Virus record (IMG/VR): IMGVR_UViG_3300032893_000054
Coordinates: 1 to 56,770 of that record
Strand: one strand, 5' to 3'
Source: a virus
DNA: 56,770 nucleotides
Part shown: positions 3,532 through 56,770 of the stretch, piece after piece
How the letters are laid out: the number at the start of each line of letters is the position of its first letter
How positions within the stretch are numbered: the first letter of the stretch is position 1
Translations under genes and position numbers: made by a program
The notes under the pieces: generated by a model
The model's database searches: none
Seen by the model: the letters and a program-made list of their open reading frames with translations, nothing else
Told to the model about the DNA's origin: nothing

Positions 3532-4598
3532 GCGCCTTCCTCACTTCCCTCGCCTCCGTCGCCGACCAGTACGGCCAGGCGAAGGAGTCCGCGCGGCAGG
3601 AGAAGCAGCAGATCGCCGAGAAGGCCCAACGCATGGACGTCGAGCAAGCCTATCTACAGTTGGCTCGGCAGGCGGAGGCGCGGCAACGGGAATCGGAGCA
3701 GGCGCGGATCGCTCAAGGCGACATCATCAAGGTCGGCAATCGGCTGTGGTCCGTATCCAAGGGCAAGTTCATCGACCCGCAGCAACCTGACCCGATGATG
3801 CACCTCCGCGAGTTCATAAAGACTCTCCCGCCGGATATCCAGAAGGGAGCCACGGCACGCGCGCAGGCCATCGCGGAGCAGGATCCGAACGACCCCAAGG
3901 GAGTGATCACCGAGGTCATGCGGTACGCGGACGAGGCCCAACGATTGGCACAGGCCGAAGCCAACCGACGTGAGGATACCAAGACGCGCCATCAGGAGCA
4001 CGAAGAGGACGTCAAGAACCAGCACGAGTTCCAGCAGCAGCAACGCCGTGAGCTAGAAGCCTTCCAGCGCAACATGGTCGACTGGCGTCTGCAGGAAAAG
4101 GCCAAGCAGATGAACCCGCAGGAGCGTCAGATCTATGACTCCGTCCGCGGCATGGAGCCCATGATCAATCGCACCGTCACCTTCCTCGAACAGACGAAGG
4201 ACGCATCCGGCAAGCCGCTGAAGGATGAGAACGATCTCGTGTTTGGGAACCGCTCAGCGCTGATGCAGCACTTGCGGTTCAAGGGATACCAGTTCGGCCA
4301 ATCGCAGGAGGCAGCAACGCAGCAGCTCATCAAGAATGCCGCCGCGCTGCAGATCATGGGAGCCGCGCCGTGGCGCAACATCGCTGGACGCTCCAAGTAC
4401 AGCTACGAGGTCATCATCCAGCACCTGCCGCGGCCGACGGACACGCCCGGCCAGCTCTATGACAAGATCACATGGCTACGGGACAACGTGATCCCGGACG
4501 TGAAGCAATCGCTGGCGGGGTATGAGACTCCGGGCGGCAGCGGCAGTGTAGGTGGCGCTGGAGCGTCGGATTCCGATCCTCTAGGAGTGCTCAAGTAA
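3528..4598 (+). CDS. Coiled-coil candidate ejection protein, 356 aa
   Basis: ATG at 3528 overlaps the upstream stop (ATGA). Residues about 15-70 and 130-195 are highly charged, Q/E/R-rich helices that should form coiled coils (for example QEHEEDVKNQHEFQQQQRR). The C-terminal third is a more globular helical region, and the tail is Gly/Ser-rich. No enzymatic motif was seen. This composition, and the place between two other helical late proteins, match podovirus inner-core or pilot proteins, but sequence alone does not prove it. Confidence 0.6.
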   Translation: MSAFLTSLASVADQYGQAKESARQEKQQIAEKAQRMDVEQAYLQLARQAEARQRESEQARIAQGDIIKVGNRLWSVSKGKFIDPQQPDPMMHLREFIKTLPPDIQKGATARAQAIAEQDPNDPKGVITEVMRYADEAQRLAQAEANRREDTKTRHQEHEEDVKNQHEFQQQQRRELEAFQRNMVDWRLQEKAKQMNPQERQIYDSVRGMEPMINRTVTFLEQTKDASGKPLKDENDLVFGNRSALMQHLRFKGYQFGQSQEAATQQLIKNAAALQIMGAAPWRNIAGRSKYSYEVIIQHLPRPTDTPGQLYDKITWLRDNVIPDVKQSLAGYETPGGSGSVGGAGASDSDPLGVLK

Positions 4599-6487
4599 TG
4601 GCCACACAGCCTCTTACCGTAGATCAGTTCGCAGCGTCGATCAAGGCTAAGTACCCTCAATACGACTCGATTCCAGACGCGCAACTGGTGGAAAAGATTG
4701 TGGCGAAATATCCACAGTATAAGTCCCGGATCGGTGGAGCGGCACCACAGCCTCCCGGAGTGCCTAGCGCCCCGCCTATCCCGTTCGCCGACCGTGTGAT
4801 CCAACGGCTCAGTGAGAACGCGAAGGGCGTAGCGCAGATGCCTTCCGACATCATCACCGACGCCCGGTCGCGCTACGACGCGCGTCGCGGCAAGGAATTC
4901 GGCCCACTTAATGCTGCTCACTCGGCGTTCGAGGCGGTGGAGTCCAAGGGAGTCGAGCCTGCACTGCAGGGACTCTACTCTGTATCCACTCCGGGGCTGA
5001 TCGGTCGTATGTCGTCGAAGGAAGACCCTGCCATCACCGCCGCTGATCTGGGCACGTTCTTCGCCACCAGCGGCGAGGAGCCTGTCCGTGGTGCGCTTGA
5101 GGGTGGTGCCAAGCTACTCGACAAGATTCTAGGCAAGGTAGGCGGCGCGACCCGCATCCTCGGACAGGAGATGGCTGGGGCAGGTAAGGAACCTGTCTAT
5201 CTAGAGCGCCTGCGTCGATTCGCAGTGGCGAATGAACGCTTGGAGCGCTACAAAGGCGACGTGGATAGCGTGATCAAGGAGAACGCGCAACGACTGCAGG
5301 AACACTCCAGCAAGGCCCGTGAGGCGCAAGCGGTGTACCAGAAGGAACTAGCAGACTATCAGCAAGCCACGGCGGATAAGAAGGCTGCGCATGCTGAGAA
5401 GGTGAAGGTGGCTCGTGATGAGTGGGTGCAGAAGGCCTACGAGGCCAAGCGTCTACAGGCCCAGCACGATAGCGCACAGGCCCAACTCGACACCATTAAG
5501 CGTGGGCAGGAGGCCTACGCCAAGATCGTCAAGCAAAACGTAGACTCTACCTACGCTGCCGTGAAGGGGAGTCTCGATCAGCGCTGGAAGGCGGTCAACG
5601 ACACGGTGGGCACGACCACACCCATAAATTCCGTCGCCGTTCGGGACGCGATCGAAGCGGCCAAGGAAAAGTACCTGATGGGTGCACCAGAGAGCCTGAA
5701 AGTCTTCAACGATCTCACGCGCCAGATGCAAGGCCCGGAACAATTGGACGCTGCGTCTGGAATCGAGCAATCCCTGCGCCCGCTTACGTGGGGCGAGGGA
5801 CGGGTGCACTACTCCGCGCTCGGAGACAAGATGTATTCCGGCGAACTCCCCGGCAACGTCTATCACGCGCTCGGCGCCGTGCGTGATGCGTTGGACAGGC
5901 AACTCAGTGACGTTGCTAAGGCTCGCGGCGCAGGCAAGATGTACGACTCCGTTCGCGCTGACTGGTCGCGCTTCATGGACGACTGGCGCGACATGCGATC
6001 TATCTCAGTCGGTGGCAGCCCCTTAGCCCGCGTGATGCGTGCACAGGATCCCGGCTTCGTCGCGGCGCAGATCACAGGCAAGGCGGGAGAGCGCATGGCA
6101 GCTACGCTGGGCCACTACAAGCAATTCGGAGGCAATCCGGAAGCGGTATCCAAGTACCGTGCGCTGGGCGACCGCGCCAAGAGCGTCCCCAAGGTACGCG
6201 TACCTGCTGCGCCGGGGAAACTGGAACTACCTCCCGAGCCTAAGACAGGCGAAGCGCCAACGCCAAGCACTGTCAAGGCTGCCAAGCTGAAGCCTGCGCC
6301 TCGATTCGAATTACCTAAGGAAGTTGATCCGGTTGAAGTGCGTCGACGCAAGTTGGCGGAGATGGCCGGACGACCGTTCCGATTCTACGATCTGTTCCCA
6401 CCGTACCTGATCGAGCACTTGGCGGTGAAGAGTCCTGCCATCCGGGAGTGGCTGGCCACACAGACCCGACAGGAGTTGAAGCCATGA
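4598..6487 (+). CDS. Large coiled-coil candidate ejection/pilot protein, 629 aa
   Basis: Begins ATG at 4598, one base into the previous stop. The first 50 residues hold two similar short repeats, each a helix followed by KYPQY (KAKYPQYDS and VAKYPQYKS). Residues about 205-320 are a long Lys/Glu/Ala/Gln coiled coil. Pro-rich stretches follow near residues 525-580. No lytic transglycosylase signature was found. The largest protein of the helical late set, it is the best candidate for the main ejection protein. Base composition is somewhat lower in GC than the fibre genes downstream. Confidence 0.6.
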   Translation: MATQPLTVDQFAASIKAKYPQYDSIPDAQLVEKIVAKYPQYKSRIGGAAPQPPGVPSAPPIPFADRVIQRLSENAKGVAQMPSDIITDARSRYDARRGKEFGPLNAAHSAFEAVESKGVEPALQGLYSVSTPGLIGRMSSKEDPAITAADLGTFFATSGEEPVRGALEGGAKLLDKILGKVGGATRILGQEMAGAGKEPVYLERLRRFAVANERLERYKGDVDSVIKENAQRLQEHSSKAREAQAVYQKELADYQQATADKKAAHAEKVKVARDEWVQKAYEAKRLQAQHDSAQAQLDTIKRGQEAYAKIVKQNVDSTYAAVKGSLDQRWKAVNDTVGTTTPINSVAVRDAIEAAKEKYLMGAPESLKVFNDLTRQMQGPEQLDAASGIEQSLRPLTWGEGRVHYSALGDKMYSGELPGNVYHALGAVRDALDRQLSDVAKARGAGKMYDSVRADWSRFMDDWRDMRSISVGGSPLARVMRAQDPGFVAAQITGKAGERMAATLGHYKQFGGNPEAVSKYRALGDRAKSVPKVRVPAAPGKLELPPEPKTGEAPTPSTVKAAKLKPAPRFELPKEVDPVEVRRRKLAEMAGRPFRFYDLFPPYLIEHLAVKSPAIREWLATQTRQELKP

Positions 6488-6672
6488 GCAAGCGCCGCGC
6501 CAAGAAGTCCGGAGTCAGCAACAAGATCGCCAAGCTCGTCCGCGAAGGGAAGACGCCTGAGCAGGCTGCGGGCGAGGCCTACGGCATGGAGCGCGAGGGA
6601 CGGCTCACGCACGCCGGAGGGTATATTCGCTCGTCCGCCAAGCGCCGCCGCCGAAAGGGATCACGCACATGA
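6484..6672 (+). CDS. Small basic protein, 62 aa
   Basis: Start chosen at ATG 6484: AGGAG lies 8 bases upstream and the start overlaps the preceding stop (ATGA); an upstream in-frame ATG lacks this. The ends are strongly basic (MSKRRAKKSG... and ...SSAKRRRRKGSRT), around a short helix (VREGKTPEQAAGEAYGM) resembling small phage 'KTPEQA-AIAy' proteins. Probably nucleic-acid binding. It is one of several tiny basic proteins in the late operon. Confidence 0.65.
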   Translation: MSKRRAKKSGVSNKIAKLVREGKTPEQAAGEAYGMEREGRLTHAGGYIRSSAKRRRRKGSRT

Positions 6673-9600
6673 TCAAGAGACTGGCATTCCTGTTACTCCT
6701 GCTGTCGGGCATCGCCGCCGCGCAATCCACCGGTATCCTGAGCCCCGGCGGCGTCGGCGTGTCCTGCAACGCGGTCACGGCGGCCTCGGCGAACAACCCC
6801 GGCACCGCCGGCGGCTGCACCTCGTTCAACCTTCTGGCCAGCGGCGGCCAGCTCCCGGGATTCTACACGTGGACGGTCTCGACCACGGGATCCCCATCCG
6901 GCTTGAGCGTCAAGCTGATGGGCTCGGTCGACGGAACCAACTGGACGCAGGTCGATGTCGTCAGCAGCGCTACGACGACCAACGACGGGCCGTATGCGTA
7001 TCGATTCCTCGGCTGCATCGTGGCCACGCTCAGCGGCGGCTCCTCACCGACAGCCACCTGCCTCATCTCGGTCGGCACGTCCGGCACGGGCGGAGGCGGC
7101 GCGGGGATCACGATCACCACGGTGGCTGGCCTAGCGTCCGTGTCCGGCAAGAAGAACGGCACCATCGCGACCGTCACCGACGGCGCTTCAGCGTCAGACT
7201 GCACCACCGGCTCCGGCTCTACCGTCGTCAACTGCCAGTACAACGGCTCCGCATGGTCGCAGGTCGTAGCAGCCTCCAGCGGCTCGACCGCCTTCTCCGC
7301 GCTTACCACGTCCACCAACACTACCGCCACGCTGACCTGCGGCACGGGCTGCGCCATCACGACCTCGGGCTCGGGCACCAACACGGCGACCAACACGACG
7401 GGCGTCAATGGCGCCGCGGTCCCAGCATCGAAGACCATCGTCGGCACGAACGGTAGCAACCAACTGGTAGACGCTTCTAGCGCTACCCTAAACAACAACA
7501 CGAACGGCACCGCCGCCAGCCTCAGCGCGATCCTTGCCAACACTCTGGGCGGCACCGGCGCCAACTCCTCCACCTCGAACGGTGTGGCGCAGGTCTCCTC
7601 GGGCACGTGGTCCTTCTCGACCGGACTGGCGAACGGCACGACCGCGACCACCCAGACCACCGGCGACAACTCGACCAAGATCGCTACGGACGCGTTCGTC
7701 GCATCCAGCATCCTGCCCACCGGCACGCAGGGCTACTCCGTATTCAACACTTCCGGCTCGACCGCCTACGCGCCTTCCTCGGCAGCGGGCGTGGATAGCA
7801 CCCAGTTCAGCGGCACCGACCGTTGCGCAGCGGCGAAGACCGACTGGACGACCAACGGTGCCGTGTCCCCGGTCAACATGGTCGGCGAGCAATCGAACGA
7901 GACGACGCAGCTCCTCACCTGCTCCAGCAACCCGTTCCCGGTCGTCGCGGCGTTCGGCGGCAGCGACACGAACAATGGCGGCGTCTTCTGGCTGCCGCAG
8001 GGCGCGCTGAATCCCGCATTCGGGCTGCAGGTAGGCATGGACGGCGTGCTCATCCAGGGCGTTGGCATGGAGGCCAACAACTCCGTCCGCCAGGGCAGCT
8101 TTATCATTCCGCACTCAGGATGGAGCAGCTTCTCCGCGCCAGCCGCGACCTGCTCGCCGGGATCCGGAGGCGGCGCGGTCTGCACGAACTACAACCCGTT
8201 CCTGCTCGCGCTTGGTCCGGTCGTCGGCTACACCTCGACCTATACGACAGCCAGCGGCCCCTACAACACGAAGATCAAGAATGTCTCCTTCGATTGCCAG
8301 CAGATCGCCGGACTCGGCGGCGTCAGCGACGTGGGGCAGGAACTCTCTGGCTTCGACACCGCGACGATCCTGAACTGTCGCACCGTCAGTTTCTTCCAGC
8401 AGTTCGACACAGCGGATCAGGTAGCGATCCAGCATCTCTACGTGCGCCATCCCAACACCTCCTCGGTTGAGGCGAATACGACCCCCGCCACCGGGCTGTC
8501 ATGGTTCAACGACACCAATGGGAACGTCCTGCTCCAGTGGACGAACTCCCCGACCGCGACTCCAGGCTGCGGTATGACGGTGCTGGTCAGCAACGCTTCC
8601 GCCGGCGGCACGCACTCGAACACCATCAACGGGCCGTGGCAGGTATCCGGCCTCGTCGACGCTTCCGGCAACCTGCTCATCTGCGACCGTACCGCAGGGA
8701 CGGCCAGCGACCTGAGCGGACACTTTAGCGGCACGGCGAAGCAGGTCATCTTCGACACTCCGCTGACCCTCGCCGACTCTCAGTCCACGAACACCAACGC
8801 CATCGCGGAATTCTTCACCACCGGCATGGACGTGCAGGCGACCTCCGCCCGCACCGTGCCGGACATGACGATCACCAGCAACATCACAGACTTCACGAAT
8901 GGTATCTATGCCAGAGTCACCACGTCCGGCACGACGATCACCTACTCCAGCGGCAATCACTGGCTAACCTCTACTTCAGGCACGGTCCATATTAACGGCG
9001 TCGGGTACACGATCTCCGGCACTTGCGGCTCGACCTCAACCTGCACGACCGTCCAGACGCTCCCGACCTATGCGACTCCAGTGGTATTCGACTCCGGGAT
9101 GCAGGCTCCGTGGTGCGAACTCACGGTCAGCGGCAACGCGGTCAGCTACGACGGCACGCACGTGGAAGAAGCCGAGAACGGTATCTGCGTCGGGCTGGAG
9201 CAGCAGACGATCGGCCTGACCATGACGAACGTCAGCCCGGGCGTGTACCTGCAGAATGGCATCCACCTATTCTCCACGTTCGGCGCGTGCCTCGGATGCA
9301 CGTTCCGGCCGTCGCAGGTCTACACGGGCTCGATCTCGGTCTACAACTCCTTCGTAGACGACTTCAATCACAACACGCTCACCTCCGCCAACAATCCCTA
9401 CGTGACCTACATGACGGGATGGAGCGGCATCGTCGGCGACGTGGAAGTGTGGGCGCAGACCTGTTCGGAGATGACGAACGGGTGGTGCAACTCCGGCTCC
9501 GGCAGCGCGGCGACGAAGACGTACTACAACAATGGGGTCGCGCAGATCATCCTCAACGGCACTGGGACCATCGCGCTTTCCGGTTGCGCAGGCATGTACA

Positions 9601-37311: not shown

Positions 37312-37806
37312 ATGAAGTCACTCACCGAGTCCCCGGCGCTGCTCACCGTCCACGAGTCGGCGCCGGGCCACTACGTCCTTCGCGTGCGGGACACCTCGCT
37401 GCGCCCGCTCATCGTGGGCGTGACTAAACTCCTCCCCGACGCGGAATCGTTCGTGGTGGTGACGCCGTCGGACATCAAGGTGTTCTCGGCGAACGGAGAC
37501 GGACCCGCGGCGGCGGCGGAACCCGCGGCCACGCTGGACCCGGAGATGCAGGCCGCGATCGCCGAAGCCGAAGGCGTCGACACCTCCGCGCCACCGCAAT
37601 CCGAGGTCGTGGGCGACACTCCCCAGGGCACCAAGGTGGTCCGGCGCAAGAAGCCCTCCTCGGTGGCCAACAAAGCCGAGCCCTGCGGCCGCTGCACCGG
37701 CACCGGCGTGATCCAGATGATCCTCGACGGCGGCGGGACGGGCGAGGCCGCGTGCCCGGTGTGCAAGGGATCGGGGACGATGAACCGGTTTGGAGTGAGT
37801 AAATGA
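37312..37806 (+). CDS. DnaJ-type zinc-finger protein, 164 aa
   Basis: N-terminal half is strand-rich. The linker is Ala/Pro-rich. The C-terminus holds CGRCTGTGVI and CPVCKGSGTM, two CxxCxGxG repeats as in the DnaJ cysteine-rich domain. May act as a chaperone-like or nucleic-acid-binding factor in head assembly; function unknown. GGAGAGCG precedes ATG. Confidence 0.6.
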   Translation: MKSLTESPALLTVHESAPGHYVLRVRDTSLRPLIVGVTKLLPDAESFVVVTPSDIKVFSANGDGPAAAAEPAATLDPEMQAAIAEAEGVDTSAPPQSEVVGDTPQGTKVVRRKKPSSVANKAEPCGRCTGTGVIQMILDGGGTGEAACPVCKGSGTMNRFGVSK

Positions 37807-38102
37807 CACCTGACGACATCCCCTCCTGCGTGTGCACGGCCCATCCGAAGGGCGACGATCTCAAGAAGTACATGGTCGTCGTCGAAGAGACGCCGGAGCA
37901 TGTCGTATGGTGCTGCCAGCGCTGCACCGAGATCTCGCACGTGTCGACGATCCAGGTGCGCACGCTGAAACGCGGCCGGGAGAAGGCGGCCCACGCGGTC
38001 GCCGAGCGCCGGCGCACGATGGACCCGCGCCTGCTGCGCATGCTGCACGCGCGCAAGCGTGGCGGGATGACGATCCGAGAGATGGAGGACCAGCGACGAT
38101 GA
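37803..38102 (+). CDS. Small zinc protein, 99 aa
   Basis: Overlaps neighbours by 4 bp at both ends. Contains SCVCTAHPKGDD and CCQRCTEISH, a Cys/His zinc site, followed by a basic helix (LKRGREKAAHAVAERRR). Possible nucleic-acid binding. Unrecognised. Confidence 0.55.
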   Translation: MTPDDIPSCVCTAHPKGDDLKKYMVVVEETPEHVVWCCQRCTEISHVSTIQVRTLKRGREKAAHAVAERRRTMDPRLLRMLHARKRGGMTIREMEDQRR

Positions 38103-38371
38103 CGACCAAGAAGATTATCGAACAGGCGGCGGAGAACATGGTCGCGGATCGGCTCAAGCTGGCCGCCGACCGCATCCGCGCCTCCCGTGCCGTCCCCGAC
38201 ATCGCGATCTGCGATGCCATCGGCGATGCCGCATGGTTCCGCGAGTACTGCAACATCTGCCTGCAGTCCCCCATCGCCAACTCCTTCCTCGGCTGCATCC
38301 TGTTCGGATGGCAACTCTGCGAGGAGTACAAGCGACTGGAAGGCAAGAACGAAATCATCTATCGCGCATAG
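38099..38371 (+). CDS. Small helical protein, 90 aa
   Basis: Starts MTTKKIIEQAAENMVADRLK and stays helical, with several Cys (ICDAIG, YCNICLQ, GCILFGWQLC) in the second half. ATGA coupling to the gene before. No family recognised. Confidence 0.5.
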   Translation: MTTKKIIEQAAENMVADRLKLAADRIRASRAVPDIAICDAIGDAAWFREYCNICLQSPIANSFLGCILFGWQLCEEYKRLEGKNEIIYRA

Positions 38372-38381
38372 GAGGACTTAC

Positions 38382-38591
38382 ATGATCTGCTGGCTGGTTG
38401 GACACAAGTTCAAGGATGTTACAACCAATGTGGATTGGTTTATTGATGAGCGGACGGGCATTGATCCATCGACGTTCGATGCCAATAACGTGCATCTCTG
38501 TAACGCTAACTCTCCTGTTCCTGCAGCCGTGCATAGTGGAGTTACCTTAATTTGTCTTAGATGTGGTGATGTAAGGAGGCTACATGCCTGA
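38382..38591 (+). CDS. Zinc-ribbon-like chimera carrying a portal-protein segment, 69 aa
   Basis: The ends, MICWLVGHKFKDV and LICLRCGDVRR, are those of a common small phage zinc-ribbon protein (C..lGH.w ... C.rCG). The middle, WFIDERTGIDP-x-x-F ... V ... NANSP-x-P, matches residues about 351-380 of this phage's portal protein (WFIDERTGIDPESF ... INANSPAP): about 20 identical residues in 31. Codons differ from the portal's mostly at third positions, and the gene is AT-richer than its neighbours. GGAGGACTTAC precedes ATG. The next gene starts within its last codons after AAGGAGG. Confidence 0.65.
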   Translation: MICWLVGHKFKDVTTNVDWFIDERTGIDPSTFDANNVHLCNANSPVPAAVHSGVTLICLRCGDVRRLHA

Positions 38592-39021
38592 ACTAGAGTT
38601 GACCCCACATCCGGACGAGCAACGATCGCTGGCAGAGTTGCGATCCGAGTTCCGTGCCCAGCACCTCGCCGACTTGCGTTCCCAGTACGCAGGCTACCAC
38701 CCCGTCGGCTGGGCCATGATCGGCGATCCGGAGATGTCCCGGTCACAATTCACCGCGCACGAGTGGTCCGAGCAAATGTTGAGATGGCTGGACGCTCCCT
38801 GCACGCAGGACTTCGGCCTTCCAGCGGTCCCTGCTGCCACCGTCGACCGCCTGTACAAGCTGGCCGAGGAGTCCCTGCTCCACGAATCCGCGACGTGGGA
38901 TTCCAGCGTCGATGGCGTCACCGACCACGACGCCCCGCCGTGCGCCGACGTACTGACGATGACGGATGAACAACTCTGTACGTACATTGACCAAGCGATC
39001 GAGGCTTCCGCAAATGGCTAA
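38584..39021 (+). CDS. Unknown acidic protein, 145 aa
   Basis: ATG follows AAGGAGGCTAC. Helical, acidic, with HEWSEQMLRWLDAP and a C-terminal MTDEQLCTYIDQAIEAS. No catalytic motif. It precedes the glycosyltransferase cluster, overlapping the first by 8 bp. Confidence 0.5.
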   Translation: MPELELTPHPDEQRSLAELRSEFRAQHLADLRSQYAGYHPVGWAMIGDPEMSRSQFTAHEWSEQMLRWLDAPCTQDFGLPAVPAATVDRLYKLAEESLLHESATWDSSVDGVTDHDAPPCADVLTMTDEQLCTYIDQAIEASANG

Positions 39022-40546
39022 GTTCAACATCTCCCGCATCGTCCCCGAAGGTTTCATCCACTCCTCCGGGTTCCTTGAAGTCATCGACTCGCTCGCGTGG
39101 TCCCTCGCTGCTCTGGAGCACGATGTCAACGTCACGCAGAACTGGTTCTCTGAGTCCAAGGAGCACAATATCCTGTTCGGCGCTGAACTGGTCGCCGACT
39201 TCCAGCGCCTGCCGCCCGGGACCATCATCTTCAACCTTGAACAGCCGTCCCATCCGCGCCTCGACGTCGTCCGCCGAATAGCTAAGGAGTCTGATGCCGT
39301 AATATGGGACTACTCTCACCGCTCGGTCGCTGACTGGCGTGATCGAGGCTTTACCAACGTTTATCACGTCCCTATTGGTTACACTCCCAACCTGACTCGT
39401 ATTCCACACCTCGCTCCCGACTACGACGTCTTCTTTTGCGGTTGGCCTACTCCGCGCCGCGTGGAACTCCTGAATTCCCTCCGCGCCGCCGGCCTGCGTG
39501 TGTTCTTCTCCGACGCCTGCTACGGCGGGGGCCGTGACAACGCGATCGCCCGCTCTCGCCTCTGCCTCAACGTGCACCACGACGGCCGCGACCGCTTCGA
39601 GATCGTGCGCTGCTCCTACCTGATGGCCAACTCGCACGCTATCGTCACCGAGGTTTCCTCCGATGACGACGAATACGCGGACCTGCAGGGGATCGAGCGC
39701 GTACCCTATCGCCTGCTCACTGACTTCACCATGTCCCTGCTGACCAACGACCGCCAACTCCAGGACATGCAGATGCAATCCCTCGTGTCGATCAAGAAAC
39801 GCAACTTCGTCGAATCCGTCGACGCGGCGCTGAAGGACTGGCAACCCGCGACGCCATCCACCGCGCCGGTCATGTCGAAGCCGCTCGCCCACGCCATGGC
39901 CAGCTCCGAGCGCAAGCGCGACTATCTGTCCGCCGCCCGCGTCCTCCCCCGCGCCATCCCGACCGGCGCCCGCGACCCGCGCGTCGCAGCCCGCTACCAG
40001 GCCGCCCTCCGCCAGGGCGACATGAAGGACTTCGTCGAGTGGATGGCACAGCACGCCAAGGGCAACATCCTCGAGATCGGCGTGCGCGACGGCGCCTCCA
40101 CCTCTGCATTCCTGACCGGCCTCGAACTCGCAGGCGGCCACCTCTACTCCGTCGACGTGCAGCCCTGCGGCCACCTGTTCTCCGGCCATCCCCAGTGGAC
40201 CTTCATCCACCTCAACTCGATCGAGTTCCAGAAGGTGATCGCGCAGATCCCCTACGAGCTGGACATCATCCTGATCGACGGCGACCACTCCAAGGTGGGC
40301 GTGCTGACCGACTGCGAGTACCTGCGCCAGCTCCGCCCCGGCGGCATGGCCCTGTTCCACGACATCGCGCCGGAGCCTAACTCGACCAACGATCCCACGT
40401 GGCCGGGTGACGCGGTGAAGGAGGTCTACGAGTCGCTGTGCCGCGGCATGGCGGAGCACGGGTGGACGAACGAAATCCTGCCGGGACGCTACGGGATGGG
40501 AGTGCTGCGCCGCCCGCAGCCGCAACCAGCAGAGGTGAGCGCGTGA
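39014..40546 (+). CDS. Glycosyltransferase-methyltransferase fusion, 510 aa
   Basis: Residues 1-~290 resemble GT-B glycosyltransferases (CgeB/GT1-like): VYHVPIGYTPNLTRI, YDVFFCGWPTPRRVELLNSL, then FEIVRCSYLMANSHAIVTE, the usual acceptor/UDP-sugar C-lobe. A linker follows, then about residues 340-480 are a class I SAM methyltransferase of the Methyltransf_24 type: ILEIGVRDGAS (motif I), LYSVDVQP, DIILIDGDHS, LRPGGMALFHDI. The enzyme would add a sugar and methylate it or a nearby group. Targets may be virion protein, host glycan or DNA. An AT-richer patch lies near 39290-39430. Confidence 0.75.
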   Translation: MAKFNISRIVPEGFIHSSGFLEVIDSLAWSLAALEHDVNVTQNWFSESKEHNILFGAELVADFQRLPPGTIIFNLEQPSHPRLDVVRRIAKESDAVIWDYSHRSVADWRDRGFTNVYHVPIGYTPNLTRIPHLAPDYDVFFCGWPTPRRVELLNSLRAAGLRVFFSDACYGGGRDNAIARSRLCLNVHHDGRDRFEIVRCSYLMANSHAIVTEVSSDDDEYADLQGIERVPYRLLTDFTMSLLTNDRQLQDMQMQSLVSIKKRNFVESVDAALKDWQPATPSTAPVMSKPLAHAMASSERKRDYLSAARVLPRAIPTGARDPRVAARYQAALRQGDMKDFVEWMAQHAKGNILEIGVRDGASTSAFLTGLELAGGHLYSVDVQPCGHLFSGHPQWTFIHLNSIEFQKVIAQIPYELDIILIDGDHSKVGVLTDCEYLRQLRPGGMALFHDIAPEPNSTNDPTWPGDAVKEVYESLCRGMAEHGWTNEILPGRYGMGVLRRPQPQPAEVSA

Positions 40547-40885: not shown

Positions 40886-41782
40886 ATGAGAATCCTCTAC
40901 CTGAGTGACCACGGCGATCGCGCCGACTACCTGCGCGATTGCCTGTTCCACGGCCTGCGCACGCTGCTTGGCCCGGACGTCGTCGACGCGGATCGGCTGG
41001 ACGTCATGTACTCTGACTTCCCCGCTAACCACTCAATCTACGGTCGCGGCTTCTCCCTCTACCGCCTCCTGCCCGAGATCCCCGTGGACCGCACCGACAT
41101 CACCGGCAAGATCCGCACCCGCTACTTCGATCTCGTGATCTACGGGAGCATCCACCGCTGCCAATCCTTCCTACGCCTCGTCGCTGACACCTACGACGGT
41201 CGCAGCGTGTGTGCGATCGACGGGGAAGACCATCCGGGATATCTGCAGGGGTTAGGCATGCGCTACTTTAAACGCGAGCTTCATCACCCGCAGCCTGGCT
41301 GCCATCCCATCTCGTTCGCCATCCCCAAGGAGAAGATCCGCCCGCACCCCGCGCCCAAGACGCGCATCATGGCCCCCTGCGATCCCATCGACCGCACGAC
41401 CTACATCTACACGACCGAGTCCGCCTACTATCAGCAGTACGCCGAGTCCTACTACGGCCCGACGATGAGGAAAGCAGGATTTGATTGTATGCGCCACTAT
41501 GAAATCCTGTCCCAGTGGTGCATCCCCTACTTCCGCGTGCTGGAAGACCTCCCTGCTCCCATCTGCACCACGCTCCCGCGGCCGGAACTGAACCTCGCCA
41601 AGACGCTCATCGAATACTGGGCGCAGGACCGCTCGAACGACCGCATCCGCGCGCTGCTGCCTGCCCTGTGGGAGTCCCTCATCGATCCCGTGATGGCCGC
41701 CGTGCGCAGCCGCATGACCACCGAATCCCTCGCGACCTACGTGCTTGACACGATCGGCGTCCGCGCCAAGGAGTATGCCTGA
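40886..41782 (+). CDS. Glycosyltransferase-like protein (CgeB/GT-B type), 298 aa
   Basis: N-terminus MRILYLSDHGDRADYLRDCL has the first strand and loop of a GT-B fold. RYFDLVIYGSIHR and VCAIDGEDHPG resemble the family's middle motifs, and NAxY-type GPTMRKAGFDCMRHYE follows. The C-terminal helical part fits. No metal-binding DxD is expected for GT-B. It forms a module with the fusion enzyme before it and the GT-A enzyme after it. Confidence 0.6.
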   Translation: MRILYLSDHGDRADYLRDCLFHGLRTLLGPDVVDADRLDVMYSDFPANHSIYGRGFSLYRLLPEIPVDRTDITGKIRTRYFDLVIYGSIHRCQSFLRLVADTYDGRSVCAIDGEDHPGYLQGLGMRYFKRELHHPQPGCHPISFAIPKEKIRPHPAPKTRIMAPCDPIDRTTYIYTTESAYYQQYAESYYGPTMRKAGFDCMRHYEILSQWCIPYFRVLEDLPAPICTTLPRPELNLAKTLIEYWAQDRSNDRIRALLPALWESLIDPVMAAVRSRMTTESLATYVLDTIGVRAKEYA

Positions 41783-41783
41783 G

Positions 41784-42773
41784 ATGGACATCACCATCGA
41801 CCCTGCCCAGCTCTCCCGCTGCCGGTTGTGGATCCTGATCCCCGCCGCCGGCGACCGCATCCACGCGACCTTCGCCGCCTGCCTGATCAAGCTCCTCGGC
41901 ACCCTGCGCGTCCATGGCGTCTGGTACGAGCTCCGCTTCCTCCCCGGCGACTCCCTCGTGACCCGCGCACGCAACAACCTCGCTGACATCTTCCTCTCTC
42001 AATCCTCCTCCCCGGACACCGACTTCTCCCTGTGGCTCGACTGCGACATCCTGTTCAATCCAGACGATGTCCTCCAGCTCCTCGCCCTCGACCGTGACTT
42101 CCTCGCCGCGCCGTACACGCGCAAGGGCCTGCACTGGGACCGCATCATCGCGGCCTCGCAGCTCGGCTGGACCGCCGCCCAGATCTCCGCCGTCTCGGGC
42201 ACGCCCAACGTGAACTGGATCGCCAATCCCGTCCGCATCTTCGAGCCCATGCCGGTGCTCGAAGCCGGCTCCGGCTTCTGGTTAGTCAAGCGCAAAGTGT
42301 TCCAGCACCTGATCGACTTTGGCGCAGCCCCGCGCTACCGCCGCACCGTGGACGAGACCGCCCACTACGGCCGCGACTTCGCGCACGACTTCTTCCGCGT
42401 CGGCGTGTGGCCGGAAACGTCCGAGTACCTCTCCGAGGATTGGTGGTTCTGCCGCGAGTGGCGGCGCCTCGGCGGCACGCTCTACTGCTGCTTCTGGATG
42501 AAGACGCAGCACCTCGGCCTCTACCCGTTCCAGATGGACATGACCGCGATCTCAGCGCTACTCTCAGCGACAGGGGGATACATCAATGGCGAAACGCAAC
42601 CCGGCAAGCAACGCAGCAACGGCGACGCTCGACCCGGTGGAGAACATTCCACCATCACCGATGCAAACAGAAACGGAGACGGAGCTGCTGGACTCAGCGC
42701 CCTCCTCCAATCCCTCGCCGTCCCGCCCCATGAAGCAGCAGTCCCGCGCGATCCAGGCCCGTTGGGCGACTGA
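41784..42773 (+). CDS. GT-A family glycosyltransferase, 329 aa
   Basis: Start at ATG 41784, ten bases after AAGGAG; an upstream ATG (41775) is too close to the SD. WILIPAAGDRI starts the Rossmann-like half. SLVTRARNNLADIFL and FSLWLDCDILF carry the DxD-type metal/nucleotide-sugar motif (DCD about residues 82-84), followed by FNPDDVLQLL. Then AGSGFWLVKRKVFQHL and EDWWFCREWRRLG match acceptor and catalytic regions of phage GT2-like enzymes. The last 60 residues are low complexity and overlap the next gene. Confidence 0.7.
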   Translation: MDITIDPAQLSRCRLWILIPAAGDRIHATFAACLIKLLGTLRVHGVWYELRFLPGDSLVTRARNNLADIFLSQSSSPDTDFSLWLDCDILFNPDDVLQLLALDRDFLAAPYTRKGLHWDRIIAASQLGWTAAQISAVSGTPNVNWIANPVRIFEPMPVLEAGSGFWLVKRKVFQHLIDFGAAPRYRRTVDETAHYGRDFAHDFFRVGVWPETSEYLSEDWWFCREWRRLGGTLYCCFWMKTQHLGLYPFQMDMTAISALLSATGGYINGETQPGKQRSNGDARPGGEHSTITDANRNGDGAAGLSALLQSLAVPPHEAAVPRDPGPLGD

Positions 42774-43432: not shown

Positions 43433-43978
43433 ATGGAACCTACTAGCATTGATTGGGCACAATTAGCGGCTTACATAGACGGCGAAGGTGCGATCATTAT
43501 TCTGCGTCGAGCTGGGTTGATGGGATACAAAAATCCTTACTATCAACTTCGACTAGTTGTGTCGAACACCGATAGGCGACTCATCGACTGGATTGTGGCT
43601 ACGTTTGGTGGACATATTAGCACACGAAAAAATGGATACGGCTTCCATCCCTATTGGGAGTGGAGAACTCAGAGCGGTAACGCTGAAGCTATCTTGCGTG
43701 GCTGCTTACCCTACTTCCACATAAAAAGGGAACAGGCTGATATAGCGTTGCAATTTAGAGACACCTTTAACAAGCGTGGACTTAATGCAGGCATACCTCC
43801 GGAAATAGTAGCCCTCCGCGATTCTCTTGGGGAGGGGCTTAAATTATGCCGCAAGCGATTCTTGGCGGAGCGTACGACGCTGCAGGATGCAGAACAGATG
43901 AAAAGGGCTAACCACATAACGAATCTCAATGCCTTGAAACGGAGACACAACACACGTGTTGAATCTGGACAACTTTGA
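43433..43978 (+). CDS. LAGLIDADG homing endonuclease next to terminase, 181 aa
   Basis: LAAYIDGEG at residues 11-19 is the LAGLIDADG motif with its catalytic Asp/Glu end. DWIVATFGGHIS and YWEWRTQSGNAEAILRGCLPYF follow as in single-motif enzymes that act as homodimers. Paralogue of the gene at 52204. Free-standing, AT-rich, with rare codons compared with its neighbours. It overlaps the first 23 bases of the terminase gene. Expected to cut an allele lacking it and to be copied by repair. Confidence 0.85.
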   Translation: MEPTSIDWAQLAAYIDGEGAIIILRRAGLMGYKNPYYQLRLVVSNTDRRLIDWIVATFGGHISTRKNGYGFHPYWEWRTQSGNAEAILRGCLPYFHIKREQADIALQFRDTFNKRGLNAGIPPEIVALRDSLGEGLKLCRKRFLAERTTLQDAEQMKRANHITNLNALKRRHNTRVESGQL

Positions 43979-45719
43979 GAAGTTTTGTGCGCGCCTAAAA
44001 ATAAAGCATCGTGATCATGGAGGAATGGTCCCGTTCCTGTTCAACCCCTCCCAGCGCAAGATCATGGAGAAGGTGCGGCGCCACCAGTCCAAGCGCCGCC
44101 ACCTGTGGCTGATCTTCCTCAAGGCCCGCCGCCTTGGGATCTCCGTGTGGTCCTCGGCGCTCTCGAACGCACACTGCCTGCAGAAGGTGAATGCCAATGC
44201 CAAGCTCGTCGCCCAGCTCTCGGAAACGTCCAAAGCCATGTACGACCAGTGTGGGGAGTTCGCGGACCAGTTGCCAATGCGCCTGCCGCCCAGAACGCAA
44301 CGTGAAATGTACTTTCCACATTCTGGTGGAATTTCTAAACTCTCACGCGCCACAGCTAAGACAGTCATCGGAGGTAGGGGACTTACTCACTCTTTCCTCC
44401 ACCTCACGGAAGCCGCGTTCTATCCGGGCGAGGACTCATTTATATCGCTACTCAACACAGTATCAGCGGCTGATCCAGATAATGTAGTCGTCATCGAAAC
44501 CACCGCTAACGGCATTGAAGGCCCCGGCCAGGCCTACCACGACTACTGGAAGGCCGCCGAAACCGAGGACAACGAATTCCTCGCGATCTTCCTCCCGTGG
44601 TGGGAAGACCCGGCCTCTCGCCTGCCCGACGCCCTAGCCGAGGACGCCCCTGCCGACGACTACGAGCGCTGGCTGATGTCCGAGTTCAAGTGCTCCCGCG
44701 GCCAGATCGCGTGGTTCCGCTCCACCCTCGAAACGAAGTGTGGCGGCTCGATCTACAAGTGGCGTCAGGAGTACCCCGCCACGCCCGACGAAGCCTTTAT
44801 CTCCTCCGGCGAGCCCATCTTCGATCACGAGGAACTCGAATACATGCGCCAATCCTGCTGCGACCCGATCGCGCTCGGCGATATCCTCGGGCCACCCTCG
44901 GATATGTTCTTCATGGAGCGCCGCAACGGGCCGCTCGCGCTCTGGGAGAAGCCGCAGCCCCTGACCCACTACTTCGTCGGCGTCGACGCGGCCAAGGGCG
45001 TCGAAGAGGGAGACTTCGCAGCTATCGTCGGCTGGAACGCGGAGACCGGTGAGCAGGCATTCCGCTACGCTGGCCGCGTGGGCCCGGAAGCCCTTGCCGA
45101 GAAGGTGAACTATCTATGCCGCTGGTACAACAAGGCGATGGTGAACGTGGAGGTGACCGGTGGATGGGGATACATCGTCGTCAAAGCGCTGCGCGACCAG
45201 TTCCACTATCCGAACCAGTACCTATGGAGGTCTCGCGATGACAAGCCGGACACCAAGCCGCGTCAGGCTCTGGGCTGGGAGACTACTGACCGCACTCGGC
45301 AAATGCTGTTTAACGTATTCCGTACGGCTCTCAGGAACTCCCTCCCAAAGCACTACGGAGATGGAGTTCCGGTACAGAGACGGGAGATCATCGTTAAAGA
45401 TATTCAACTCTACTCTCAGTGCTCCAAGGCCCAATCCGACATCGGCTTTCGCTGGCGCGTCCTCAAGGGCCACGACGACATCGCCATGGCCGCGTGGCTC
45501 GGCTGGATCGCACTGGCTCACTACCACATCCCGCATCCGGACGTGCGCCTCGTAGCCTCCACGATGGAGCAGCGCGAGCCGCGCCTCCCGCTCACCGTCC
45601 AGGACTCCCCTGAAACCACCGCCGCAGGCGTGATCGGCATGACCTCCGAGCGTCACCTGCGCCGCGTGCTAAACTACGGTCGCAACCGCGCTGGCGACGA
45701 CCGACTGAAAGGGATCTGA
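43956..45719 (+). CDS. terL: Terminase large subunit, 587 aa
   Basis: ATPase: KARRLGISV (56-64) is the adenine/Walker A region, FLHLTEAAF (147-155) Walker B with Glu152, and ETTANG (181-186) motif III. YPATPDEAFISSG is a typical terminase linker. Nuclease: VGVDAAKG (Asp344) and a C-terminal GHDDIAMA with paired Asp. It packages DNA at the portal. Start GTG 43956; the N-terminal region aligns with the usual 'F...LkIk...G...pF.fNPsQ' opening, so the overlap with the endonuclease gene is real. The first ~75 bases and patches near 44310-44520 and 45290-45420 are AT-rich. Confidence 0.9.
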   Translation: MLNLDNFEKFCARLKIKHRDHGGMVPFLFNPSQRKIMEKVRRHQSKRRHLWLIFLKARRLGISVWSSALSNAHCLQKVNANAKLVAQLSETSKAMYDQCGEFADQLPMRLPPRTQREMYFPHSGGISKLSRATAKTVIGGRGLTHSFLHLTEAAFYPGEDSFISLLNTVSAADPDNVVVIETTANGIEGPGQAYHDYWKAAETEDNEFLAIFLPWWEDPASRLPDALAEDAPADDYERWLMSEFKCSRGQIAWFRSTLETKCGGSIYKWRQEYPATPDEAFISSGEPIFDHEELEYMRQSCCDPIALGDILGPPSDMFFMERRNGPLALWEKPQPLTHYFVGVDAAKGVEEGDFAAIVGWNAETGEQAFRYAGRVGPEALAEKVNYLCRWYNKAMVNVEVTGGWGYIVVKALRDQFHYPNQYLWRSRDDKPDTKPRQALGWETTDRTRQMLFNVFRTALRNSLPKHYGDGVPVQRREIIVKDIQLYSQCSKAQSDIGFRWRVLKGHDDIAMAAWLGWIALAHYHIPHPDVRLVASTMEQREPRLPLTVQDSPETTAAGVIGMTSERHLRRVLNYGRNRAGDDRLKGI

Positions 45720-46964: not shown

Positions 46965-47147
46965 ATGCCCCGCCCCGTCCCACTCCCCTCCACCGACTAC
47001 GGCTCCCCCGACGAGGAGACCAACCGCGTGTTCCGCCGTAAGCAGGGCACGCTGCCCGGCACGCGCGTCGGCATCCCCGGGCGCTCGGACTCGCCACAAC
47101 GCAGCGACGGCTCATGGAGGCCCGGTCCCATAAAGCGCAATGGCTAA
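46965..47147 (+). CDS. Small disordered protein, 60 aa
   Basis: ATG one base after the previous stop, with GGAGG ten bases upstream. Pro/Ser/Arg-rich (MPRPVPLPSTDYGSPDEETN ...GSWRPGPIKRNG), no fold visible. Overlaps the portal start by 8 bp. Confidence 0.45.
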   Translation: MPRPVPLPSTDYGSPDEETNRVFRRKQGTLPGTRVGIPGRSDSPQRSDGSWRPGPIKRNG

Positions 47148-48822
47148 CCTCGCCCTCATCACGTCGCGGAAATCGGCAGACTACTACTCCCCCATCTCGA
47201 AACATTTAGACGAGTGGCAGCGCCTATCCCGCGACTACCGCGACCAGAAGCTCGGCAAAAACTGGTTCGACGAGGTCGAGGCCTTCTACCAACTGACCGA
47301 GGGCGGCGACCCGCTCCCTTCCTTCCGCCCGCAGGTGCGCGTTCCCCAGCTCCAAGTCCTGATGATGCACGAGGCCAACGACCTCTCGGAGACCTCCCCG
47401 CGCCCCTACATCGTAGACATCGAGCGCGGCCAGCGCGACTCCGAGCGGGAGAAGGCCCTCCAGGCCGCATGGCGACTCGCCCAAGTCAACTATCACTCCA
47501 TGTTCACCACGCTCATGTCGCTCTTCAGCGGCATGTGCCCGATGCAGGTCGGCTACGACCCGGACGCGCGCCAGGGACGCGGCGCCGTGTGGACCAAGAT
47601 GCGCGATCCCCGCACCTTCGACTGCGACCCGGCTGCCGACTATACCTGCAACTGGTCGTGGATCATGTTCGAGGATCGCGAGCATCTCGAAAAGGTGAAA
47701 TCCGATTGGGGCGCCGCCGCCTCCCAAGTCCGTCCGCGTGTCTCCGGCAAGTCCGTCTCTCCGATGCTCGGCGACTCCGCCTACGGCGTTGACATGCCCT
47801 CCGGCCCGATGTCGATGGTGCCCGGCCTCCCGCGCGGCCACGCGATCCCCTCCGACAACCGGGTCCGCGTCCGGCGCTGCTACCTGCTCGACTACACCCG
47901 CGAACAAGTGGAGTCCCACACGCTCCCCTCCGGCGCGATGGTGCCTGCTGACTTCTCTTGGCGCTACCCGAACGGCCGCATGATCGTCGAGTGCGAAGGC
48001 TACACGCTGTTCGACGGCGACAACCCATACCCGCTGCGCATGTTCCCCGCGGTCCCCTTCTGGTCGACCCTCCCCCTCTACGGCGTATGGACGGTCCCGG
48101 CGATCCGCTACTCCAAAGACCTGCAGAACGTGGCTGAGCGGCTCTACACCAACGTGTTCGAGAACGTCGTCCGCCTCAACAATGGCGTATGGTTCATCGA
48201 CGAGCGTACGGGCATCGACCCGGAATCCTTCGGTGGCATGCCGGGCGAGGTGCAGATCATCAACGCCAACTCCCCCGCGCCGACAATGGTCAGCCCACCG
48301 CAGATGCCGCAACAGATGACGCAGTTCCCCCAACTCCTCCTCGACAAACAGAAGGAGCTCCAAGGCTTCACCGACGCGCGCGCGGGCAAGCCGGGCGCAG
48401 GCAACATCTCCCCGGAACTGTTCGACTCCTCCGTGATCCGCTCGCAAGGCGTGACCCAGCTCCGCGGCCGCCTGAACTCTGTCTCCTACCAGCGCCTGGG
48501 CGAGCTCCTGTTCTACACCATGGCCCGCTTCCAGCCGACGCAGACCATGCACACCAAGACCTCCGCGGGCTACGACGCGATCAAGTGGCAATCGACCAAC
48601 CGTCCGGACCAGTTCGACTTCGAGCTCGACACGGCCTCGATCCTCCCGTTCTCGCAGGCCATGCTGCGCAAGATGGCGCCGGAGCTGCGCAAGGCTGGCC
48701 TGCTCGACGTGCACACGACTCTCGAAACGCTGGAGTTCCCCGACGCCGAGAAGATCGCTACCAACCTCGAACAGGAGCAGGCCCTCGCCGCCCTCGCGAA
48801 ATCCAAAGGAGCGCGCAAGTGA
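47140..48822 (+). CDS. Portal protein, 560 aa
   Basis: Size, place after terL and before scaffold/capsid, and pattern all fit: a Trp/Tyr-rich N-terminus (KHLDEWQRLSRDYRDQ), MHEANDLSETSPRPYI, then VWTKMRDPRTFDCDPAA and WIMFEDREHLE in the body. NNGVWFIDERTGID ... IINANSPAP follows in the stem/wing region, and a long C-terminal helical part (SQAMLRKMAPELRKAGL). The dodecameric ring is the packaging channel and anchors the adaptor. Its residues ~351-380 are mimicked by the small gene at 38382. Confidence 0.8.
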   Translation: MANLALITSRKSADYYSPISKHLDEWQRLSRDYRDQKLGKNWFDEVEAFYQLTEGGDPLPSFRPQVRVPQLQVLMMHEANDLSETSPRPYIVDIERGQRDSEREKALQAAWRLAQVNYHSMFTTLMSLFSGMCPMQVGYDPDARQGRGAVWTKMRDPRTFDCDPAADYTCNWSWIMFEDREHLEKVKSDWGAAASQVRPRVSGKSVSPMLGDSAYGVDMPSGPMSMVPGLPRGHAIPSDNRVRVRRCYLLDYTREQVESHTLPSGAMVPADFSWRYPNGRMIVECEGYTLFDGDNPYPLRMFPAVPFWSTLPLYGVWTVPAIRYSKDLQNVAERLYTNVFENVVRLNNGVWFIDERTGIDPESFGGMPGEVQIINANSPAPTMVSPPQMPQQMTQFPQLLLDKQKELQGFTDARAGKPGAGNISPELFDSSVIRSQGVTQLRGRLNSVSYQRLGELLFYTMARFQPTQTMHTKTSAGYDAIKWQSTNRPDQFDFELDTASILPFSQAMLRKMAPELRKAGLLDVHTTLETLEFPDAEKIATNLEQEQALAALAKSKGARK

Positions 48823-52203: not shown

Positions 52204-52695
52204 ATGCCGAGACGTGGACCAGATCATGAAGTGGACTACGAAGCTATAAGCCAGATCGATTGGGCAAGGATTGCAGCCTACATCGACGGTGAGGGTTGTA
52301 TTCGGATTCACCAAAACAGCCCACACACGAAAACCGGAGAGATTTACCACGGGGTTCTGATCATCGTAGCTCAGCGGGAGCCAGCACTCCCGGAGTGGCT
52401 TGTAGCAACATTCGGAGGCTTTCTCTATCGCTCTAAGGCGCAAGAGGGAAAGACGACGATGACGTACTGGCGGGCCTCTACCGTTCAGGCTTGCGAAATC
52501 CTGAAACGGTGCAGACCTTACATGATAGTCAAGGGAGCACAGGCCGACATAGCCATTGAGTACAGGGAGACTACTGGAGGGACCGGGAGAAAGGTTCCTG
52601 AAGAGATCAAACTGAGGCGACAGGCGCTAAGGCTTAAGTTGGATGCTTTGAAGCATGGTCACAAGGCTAAGGTAGAAATCGAAAGCTCGGTGTGA
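52204..52695 (+). CDS. LAGLIDADG homing endonuclease next to the capsid gene, 163 aa
   Basis: IAAYIDGEG at residues 23-31 is the LAGLIDADG motif. EWLVATFGGFLY, TYWRASTVQACEILKRCRPY and QADIAIEYRETTGG align with the endonuclease at 43433, so the two are paralogues. Free-standing, with its own promoter and a perfect SD. AT-rich island with 3' capsid and 5' downstream-gene bases sharing its composition, as after co-conversion. Confidence 0.85.
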   Translation: MPRRGPDHEVDYEAISQIDWARIAAYIDGEGCIRIHQNSPHTKTGEIYHGVLIIVAQREPALPEWLVATFGGFLYRSKAQEGKTTMTYWRASTVQACEILKRCRPYMIVKGAQADIAIEYRETTGGTGRKVPEEIKLRRQALRLKLDALKHGHKAKVEIESSV

Positions 52696-54901: not shown

Positions 54902-56179
54902 ATGTCACTGGTTGGTGAACTGATCCTGAGCGCGCGGGAGCTAATGGCGGACCTGCCACAATCCTTCCCTACGCCCTCTATCCTGAACGTCGCCACCGCG
55001 TCCGGGCTGCTGCTCTCGGTGGGCACGTGGTACATCCGCATCACCATCATCACGCCATTCGGCGAGACCGCGCCGTCGAACGAGCGCAGCATCGTCACCA
55101 CGACGAACAACCAGAACGTCTCCGTCGCCGTCGGCGTCGCGGGCGAGGGCGTCAACACGCAGGTGCTGGCGGTACGCATCTACTTCAGCCAGCAATCCCA
55201 GGGCCAGGTTACCTATCAGCAGATCAGCCCGTTCCCGGCGAACGGCATCGTTACTACCGTCGACGCCAACACACAGCCGGACGCCTCACTGCTGATCGTC
55301 AACGGTGCGCCACCTTCCCGTTCCACCGCCTACCTCCCTGACACGGACGGCCCGGCGTTCGGCGCCTACGCATTCTACCGCGCGCTGAACCAGGCCCTCT
55401 CGTGGGCCGCAGCCAAGAACCGTGGCGGCCTGCCCGACTTCGGCGCTGCGGGCACGATCAACGGGCAGGGGAACTACGTGATGCCGGGCTGGTGGCGCAA
55501 GATCGACTCGGCGTGGTTCGACGGCTACCCGCTCGGGCTCCTGCAGAAGAACAATGTCTACCGCCGCAACCCGGTCCCGGGCTACTCGGGCATGCTGATC
55601 GTATTCCAAGCCACCGACCGGCTGATGCTCGAGGCGTGGCCGCAGCCGAACCGCACCTCCGGCCAGACTACACTCTCGTCCGGGATGGGATCGACGGACA
55701 CGGTAGCCAATCTGACCTCCTCCGCTGGCTACGTCCTCGGCTTCGGCATGACCCAGATCGACTCCGAGATCGTCTACTTCTCCGCCATCAACGGCAACCA
55801 GCTGACCGGGCTGCAGCGTGGCATGTGCGGCACCACGCCAGCCTCGCACTCCACCTCCGCGCCGGTGACCGAGCTGAACCTCATGATTTCCGGCTACCGC
55901 GTGCCATCGACGTACTCCGTCGGCCAATCCGCGAAGACTCTGTACCTCCCTCCGGGCTGGGACGAAGCGCTCGTCTCCTACATGCTGTACCGATTCCGCA
56001 AGGCCGAGCAGGACGAAGCGGGCGCGAAGGCCGCCTACGCGGAAGCCACCGAGAAGATGTCTGGCCTGAGCGCCAACCGGATCATCGCGGGGCCGCGCCA
56101 GATCTCGCCCTACGCGGCCATCGGGCCTGAAGTCGGCGCCGGATTAGGGACAGCCTTCGGTGGCGTGATAATCCCTTGA
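54902..56179 (+). CDS. Head-tail adaptor-like protein with Fn3 insert, 425 aa
   Basis: N-terminal helix (ELILSARELMADLPQS) and C-terminal helices (ALVSYMLYRFRKAEQDEAGAKAAYAEA) form the adaptor core typical of podovirus gatekeepers. Between them are an Fn3-like domain (YIRITIITPFGETAPSN) and beta insertions (FGMTQIDSEIVYF, LQRGMCGTTPASH). Placed directly before the nozzle-like gene. CAGGAGCGATCG precedes ATG. Confidence 0.65.
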   Translation: MSLVGELILSARELMADLPQSFPTPSILNVATASGLLLSVGTWYIRITIITPFGETAPSNERSIVTTTNNQNVSVAVGVAGEGVNTQVLAVRIYFSQQSQGQVTYQQISPFPANGIVTTVDANTQPDASLLIVNGAPPSRSTAYLPDTDGPAFGAYAFYRALNQALSWAAAKNRGGLPDFGAAGTINGQGNYVMPGWWRKIDSAWFDGYPLGLLQKNNVYRRNPVPGYSGMLIVFQATDRLMLEAWPQPNRTSGQTTLSSGMGSTDTVANLTSSAGYVLGFGMTQIDSEIVYFSAINGNQLTGLQRGMCGTTPASHSTSAPVTELNLMISGYRVPSTYSVGQSAKTLYLPPGWDEALVSYMLYRFRKAEQDEAGAKAAYAEATEKMSGLSANRIIAGPRQISPYAAIGPEVGAGLGTAFGGVIIP

Positions 56180-56202: not shown

Positions 56203-56770
56203 ATGGCCAAGCCGATCCTCCACTCCCGCTGGCTCCGCGGCATCCAGGCTGGCTTCGACCGCTACTCGCAGCCGAAGGGATCGATCGCCCGGGCCTCGTG
56301 CATCGTGCTGACCCGGCGCGGCGCGCTCAAGACCTGCGACGGCACACAGCTCATCACGGAATACAACTCCGCGCTCCAGTCCTCGTTCGGCCCGATCACG
56401 GAGGTGTTCCTGTTCCAGCCGACCGGCGCCGACGCGGCCTACTTCGGGATCGCCAAGGATCTCTCGACGCACATCGGCGCGCCATCCGGGCTCGGCGCAG
56501 CGGCCGGGGCAGCAGGCGTTCTCACGGGCACCTACAAATACGTCATCACCGGCCTCGACGGCGCGGGCGGGGAGACCACCAAGTCCAACGAAGCCACGGT
56601 CTCTCTCACCGCGCAAAAGGGATCCCTCTCATGGACCGCGCTCGCGAACGCCGCTGGTGGCTACAACATCTACCGCACCGTCGCAGGCGGCGCCTCGGGC
56701 ACGGAGCACTTCGTCGCGACCGTCGCTGGCCAATCCACGGTCGCCTACACCGACAACACCGCCGACGGCT
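56203..56770 (+). CDS. Nozzle / packaged-DNA-stabilisation-like protein, 5' part (continues at base 1)
   Basis: AAAGGAGTTATCCTAGTAT precedes ATG 56203. MAKPILHSRWLRGIQAGFDR opens the protein. IARASCIVLTRRGALKTCDG and TEVFLFQPTGADAAYFG give beta-propeller-like blades. YKYVITGLDGAGGETTKSNE starts an Fn3-like domain that is cut by the contig end and completed at base 1. Full length is 865 aa across the join. See the entry at 1-2157. Confidence 0.7.
   Translation, partial: MAKPILHSRWLRGIQAGFDRYSQPKGSIARASCIVLTRRGALKTCDGTQLITEYNSALQSSFGPITEVFLFQPTGADAAYFGIAKDLSTHIGAPSGLGAAAGAAGVLTGTYKYVITGLDGAGGETTKSNEATVSLTAQKGSLSWTALANAAGGYNIYRTVAGGASGTEHFVATVAGQSTVAYTDNTADG
56644..56770. repeat. Terminal direct repeat, right copy
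   Basis: Exact copy of bases 1-127. Dropping one copy gives a circle of 56,643 bp and rejoins the two halves of the nozzle-like gene. Confidence 0.93.

Follow-up and report, generated by a model that had tools for sequence, protein, structure and literature searches.

A 69-codon ORF with a portal-like middle

The window analyzed here is the whole of IMG/VR record IMGVR_UViG_3300032893_000054 (positions 1 to 56,770). Its two ends share an exact direct repeat of 127 bases (1 to 127 and 56644 to 56770), which makes it likely that the record is a complete genome, either circular or terminally redundant; end overlaps of the same kind occur in two related genomes (G003 and G008). On the plus strand, an ORF at positions 38382 to 38591 encodes a product of 69 aa, MICWLVGHKFKDVTTNVDWFIDERTGIDPSTFDANNVHLCNANSPVPAAVHSGVTLICLRCGDVRRLHA. 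A strong Shine-Dalgarno AGGAGG (38370 to 38375) is read directly 6 bases 5' of its ATG, and its stop codon overlaps the start of the downstream gene (38584), whose own AGGAGG ribosome site lies within the C-terminal codons of the ORF (38574 to 38579). The product consists of an N-terminal part, MICWLVGHKFKDVTTNVD (38382 to 38435), with the pattern C3-x4-H8; a segment resembling the clip of a portal protein, WFIDERTGIDPSTFDANNVHLCNANSPVPAAV (residues 19 to 50; 38436 to 38531); and a C-terminal part (38532 to 38588) with a C58-x2-C61-G-x2-R-x-L knuckle.

Two zinc-ligand pairs (i.e., C/H-x4-H and C-x2-C; C3, H8, C58, and C61) are present. The sequence-only reading had taken the outer parts for a common small phage zinc-ribbon protein. 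The zinc-ribbon likeness holds as a likeness in pattern only, and no tie to a family could be made, because searches of Pfam, PHROGs, NCBIfam, and PADLOC returned no convincing family match for these parts. The best scores were E values of 0.009 in Pfam (16.4 bits; cutoff, 25), 0.04 in PHROGs, and 0.11 in NCBIfam, and PADLOC gave no match for the ORF itself. The 69-aa protein is presumably expressed and would bind zinc.

The codon usage of the ORF is foreign (AT-rich): its GC3 is 0.44, compared with 0.76 to 0.88 for the neighboring genes and 0.88 for the portal gene. This value resembles those of two LAGLIDADG-like genes of the same phage (0.46 and 0.57). The latter are related low-GC ORFs on the plus strand (43433 to 43978 and 52204 to 52695; 37% identical) that resemble LAGLIDADG homing endonucleases (Pfam E value of 0.018 for the former; no Pfam match for the latter). 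The former directly precedes the terminase gene, and the latter lies after the portal region. Also before the terminase gene, an ORF at 39014 to 40546 (plus strand) encodes a Methyltransf_24 domain (E = 2e-13) and a glycosyltransferase-like N-terminal part, and an ORF at 41745 to 42773 has a weak match to Anp1; together, they suggest a sugar-modification cassette.

A variable slot between conserved genes

The ORF lies between two conserved neighbors on the plus strand. Homologs of the upstream gene (38099 to 38371; 90 aa; MTTKKIIEQ...) adjoin the slot in G007, G008, and G009, while the downstream gene (38584 to 39021; 145 aa), which anchors the slot, is kept in five relatives (G003, G007, G008, G009, and G010) and in two further contigs (L155 and L157). 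No additional ORF stands directly 5' of the 145-aa gene in G008, G009, or L155 or, as far as the sequence reached, in L157. Elsewhere the slot holds an ORF of 100 aa (G007), two small ORFs (G003), or an ORF of 81 aa (G010; contigs L034/L126). A slot that is empty or differently filled in relatives, combined with a deviant GC3, characterizes the ORF as moron-like accessory cargo. The two small conserved genes 5' of the slot (37803 to 38371) are in swapped order relative to G007 (L028) and G008 (L031). In G010 (L034), a minus-strand ORF containing YGTWEGMKRRCLNPKDKRFADYGGRGIKICKKW, which we take to be an HNH-type homing endonuclease pattern, adjoins the cargo slot on its 5' side.

The ORF in the slot of G010 is the closest counterpart that we found for the outer parts. 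It has the same C-x4-H-x-F and C-x2-C-G-x2-R-x-L patterns as the 69-aa ORF but lacks the portal piece, and its middle has no match in eight related genomes. Among frames of up to 250 residues in these genomes, only the two ORFs carry the full Cys/His pattern, which none of the shuffled sequences did, and their C-terminal local match was equaled by 0 of 1,000 shuffles. The G010 ORF was also checked for a segment taken from some other virion protein, and no match was found. Since ribbons with and without a portal piece occupy the same slot, the arrangement fits the capture of a portal piece into a ribbon loop; the two sequences compared are suggestive of such an event and lend support to the chimera of zinc-ribbon-like ends and portal piece proposed in the sequence-only reading.

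Homology of the middle to the portal clip

When all frames of the window were compared by BLASTP, residues 19 to 50 of the ORF aligned with residues 351 to 384 of the phage's own portal protein (E values of about 1e-9 to 1e-8, against 0.3 for the frame ranked second). The match lies where the sequence-only reading had placed it, and it is borne out by the controls below. The identity count needs correction: 20 of 32 aligned residues are identical (34 columns, including two gap columns), rather than 20 of 31. With the portal of one relative, 22 of the 32 are identical. Among 4,458 small frames of eight related genomes, this was the only match of a small frame to a large one from the same genome with an E value below 1e-4 (contig-end overlap aside), and the best match in reversed-sequence controls of the same comparison was 0.002. 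At the sequence level, the homology of the piece to the portal is beyond reasonable doubt. DNA differences are mostly at third positions, as had been noticed earlier (8, 7, and 20 at the three codon positions). The homology covers a 32-residue clip stretch only; the ORF does not contain a full portal with its wing, stem, clip, and crown.

In a separate observation, a 53-aa frame of G007 (4502 to 4660) resembles the N terminus of a nearby 982-aa frame (5063 to 8008; E = 4e-4), and it may be another instance of a large phage protein being represented by a small fragment.

The portal gene (47140 to 48822, plus strand; 560 aa) matches portal PHROG 156 (E = 1.8e-11). A profile search of the PDB with the portal found nothing, and the fold was therefore compared by structure instead. 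The AlphaFold model was built from an alignment of 48 portals (mean pLDDT, 72; an alignment of 10 rows gave only 32), and in a Foldseek search it matched the SU10 portal (E = 7.9e-15). The model has, in order, a helix at residues 322 to 346, a short strand (351 to 353), a short helix, a second short strand (371 to 373), and a helix at 391 to 407. The counterpart of the captured stretch (residues 351 to 384; 48190 to 48291, plus strand) occupies the loop joining the two stem helices, which is where the T7 portal has a clip of three strands and a short helix (PMC6702177). On the basis of this order of structural elements, we assign the matched segment to the portal clip in a model whose pLDDT there is near 60 (only about 57 to 63 at the clip residues).

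The portal clip docks the terminase and the adaptor (PMC6702177), and the TIR defense protein SpbK also docks on it (PMC12847820 and PMC11984713). In the window, the candidate clip-binding partners are the terminase large subunit (43956 to 45719, plus strand; PHROG 2, E = 2.6e-22) and a possible SU10-like head-tail adaptor (54902 to 56179, plus strand), for which the Pfam SU10_adaptor match (E = 4.5e-5; 24.4 bits) is under the curated cutoff of 27.

Divergence of the piece and signs of selection

Portals were collected from IMG/VR, i.e., nine close relatives (69 to 81% identical) and dozens of more distant ones. The piece shares 19 to 22 identical residues with each of eleven clade portals, the highest number (22) being found for L009 and L015 and 20 for the phage's own portal. 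At the DNA level, 61 of 96 bases of the middle are identical to the own portal gene and no more than 62 to any other portal compared. At shared residues, codon agreement is at chance level for every clade portal (P = 0.10 to 0.79). A recent copy of the own portal was rejected on this comparison, and since synonymous similarity is at chance level throughout, the same holds for every other portal compared. These values also bear on the possibility of an assembly chimera or sequencing artifact, in favor of which nothing speaks except the singularity of the find. Because the middle copies no portal DNA compared, and because its GC3 is 0.50 against 0.88 in the portal gene, we regard such an artifact as scarcely credible.

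Between the piece and the eleven clade portals, changes at silent sites have reached or nearly reached saturation (pS, 0.71 to 0.96), while pN is only 0.20 to 0.27. The replacement changes are unevenly distributed. In the motifs WFIDERTGIDP and NANSPVP, pN is 0 relative to six of the eleven portals and at most 0.07 relative to the others, while at sites outside both motifs it is 0.47 to 0.61. All 18 motif residues are unchanged relative to several portals despite the saturated silent sites, and the motifs equal the phage's own clip except for one residue in NANSPVP. Between them, the loop has diverged and lost two codons (FGG.PGEV in the portal; FDA--NNV in the chimera), and the conserved form was not found in the chimera. 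In 48 portals, G366 and P368 are invariant and G365, G369, and E370 nearly so; the loop thus probably changed after capture, while the 18 motif residues stayed. The differences are clustered along the piece (p = 0.003 in a run test that was chosen after the data had been seen), and a one-step loop replacement could account for this clustering. An unsampled donor portal with AT-rich codons could alone explain the silent saturation, but not the change of the loop.

The near-clade character of the motifs is relevant to a reading in which the portal-like stretch is an ancestral domain shared by a family of small proteins, so that no capture took place. The recurrence of the slot and its occupation by small zinc-ribbon-like ORFs would agree with that. 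However, the G010 ribbon in the same slot has an unrelated middle, and the piece corresponds to the clip of near-clade portals (WFIDERTGID and NANSP), which distant portals lack, except for one group sharing part of it. We consider common ancestry of this kind very improbable.

Searches for further copies covered several collections. No close relative of the 69-aa protein was found in IMG/VR or in cultured phages, and no second chimera was found in roughly 50 related virus records; in the records around related portals, the portals alone matched, along with the G010 slot ORF that had been used in the profile. A pattern search for the chimera at the DNA level gave two matches in IMG/VR, both due to chance, and 18 in GTDB genomes, which are unrelated and mostly represent one Helicobacter protein. 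The second copy that the sequence-only reading had proposed to look for in related contigs was thus not found in these records, IMG/VR, or GTDB. With one known copy, selection after capture is not measurable across relatives, and the argument comes from one alignment.

A single occurrence would be natural for a relic of illegitimate recombination, i.e., a stretch of portal sequence that became joined to a small accessory gene and now drifts without a role of its own, which was one of the meanings first considered; the diverged and shortened central loop points the same way. However, the 69-codon frame is intact, with a ribosome-binding site and an operon overlap, and the 18 motif residues are unchanged despite saturated silent sites. 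When neutral drift was simulated to equal pS, the number of identical residues averaged 2.5 to 3.1 and reached at most 13, never the 20 to 22 observed. Since the motifs are kept and the intervening loop is lost, a plain relic is disfavored, and we hold it to be unlikely. The clip copy instead looks preserved by selection; the earlier suggestion that the piece came from a diverged portal or was kept under protein selection gains in precision from the chance-level silent similarity, the kept motifs, and the lost loop.

Predicted role of the captured piece

We give about an even chance to the reading that the ORF encodes a captured clip mimic, kept by selection, that occupies a partner normally bound by the portal clip. 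The gene would be moron-like accessory cargo of the variable slot. Its product would be a small protein resembling a zinc ribbon, with a loop that has taken up the clip of an own-clade portal. Selection would keep the clip copy as a binding surface, and the copy, presented on a small scaffold, would compete with the portal for clip partners. Since the clip docks the terminase and the adaptor, such competition is expected on analogy with these contacts, and the 69-aa protein may be a decoy or competitor for a portal-binding partner.

Interference with competitors or superinfecting phages is another reading, in which the piece binds the terminase or the adaptor of related phages, or inserts itself into the portal ring, so that packaging fails or heads are not completed. 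The role of the clip as the dock of both proteins would allow this, the piece is slightly nearer to the portals of L009 and L015 (22 identical residues) than to its own (20), and its AT-rich character suggests acquisition from outside. The kept motifs are nevertheless those of the own clip as well, so that the phage would be expected to harm itself, barring protection by timing or by the altered loop; we judge this reading doubtful. Because the kept motifs and the own clip are one residue apart, we favor two uses over a poison directed solely at rivals: a decoy that hides the phage's portal from a host sensor of the clip, or a brake on the partners of that portal's clip.

The most specific form of the captured-mimic reading is a monovalent clip decoy on a zinc-ribbon scaffold that would occupy a ring-reading host sensor without clustering it, and thereby act in counter-defense; we put this forward as a tentative and rather unlikely proposal. 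Against a clip mimic of any kind, the clip depends on neighboring ring subunits, and an isolated piece may therefore not fold. EcAvs4 is reported to bind the portal before assembly, and by analogy a clip mimic might trigger, rather than block, a sensor of that type.

Several proteins converge on the portal clip: the packaging motor and the head-tail adaptor dock there, as does SpbK in Bacillus. A lone gene in which two clip motifs alone stayed unchanged would serve as a ready, minimal probe of what clip binding requires. Should the protein act as a decoy, counter-defense would rely on a fragment captured from the trigger; should it block packaging, it would count as a naturally occurring inhibitor of terminase docking.

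Comparison with known systems

A literature search found no portal decoy, no portal fragment in a small protein, and no separate portal-clip gene. The nearest system is SpbK, which senses the portal YonE of phage SPbeta via its clip and whose activation requires clustering on the dodecamer (PMC12847820 and PMC11984713). In that system, too, the element concerned is the clip joining two stem helices, and a host defense protein binds it. Given the need for clustering, the sensor could in principle be occupied by an unattached copy of the clip and yet stay unclustered. In SPbeta, however, the clip is within the whole portal and triggers defense, whereas here a clip piece is in a separate small protein, and the comparison is made for a phage with no known host or SpbK relative.

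Two other systems resemble single aspects of the proposal. DSAD1 (PMC11087589) competes with the tail tube protein for binding to DSR2, i.e., it is a small phage protein occupying the site of a sensor for a virion protein. DSAD1 is not known to be a piece of the virion protein, whereas the competitor here would be a captured piece. The Gol peptide of the T4 major capsid protein engages the Lit protease (as cited in PMC9712102), and a short stretch of a virion protein thus appears, from that citation, sufficient to engage a host defense protein. As described there, Gol differs in lying within the capsid protein, with no separate gene, and in activating defense. Competitors of virion triggers and sensed stretches of virion proteins are therefore known; what is new here, from one copy, is a portal-clip segment carried by a gene of its own.
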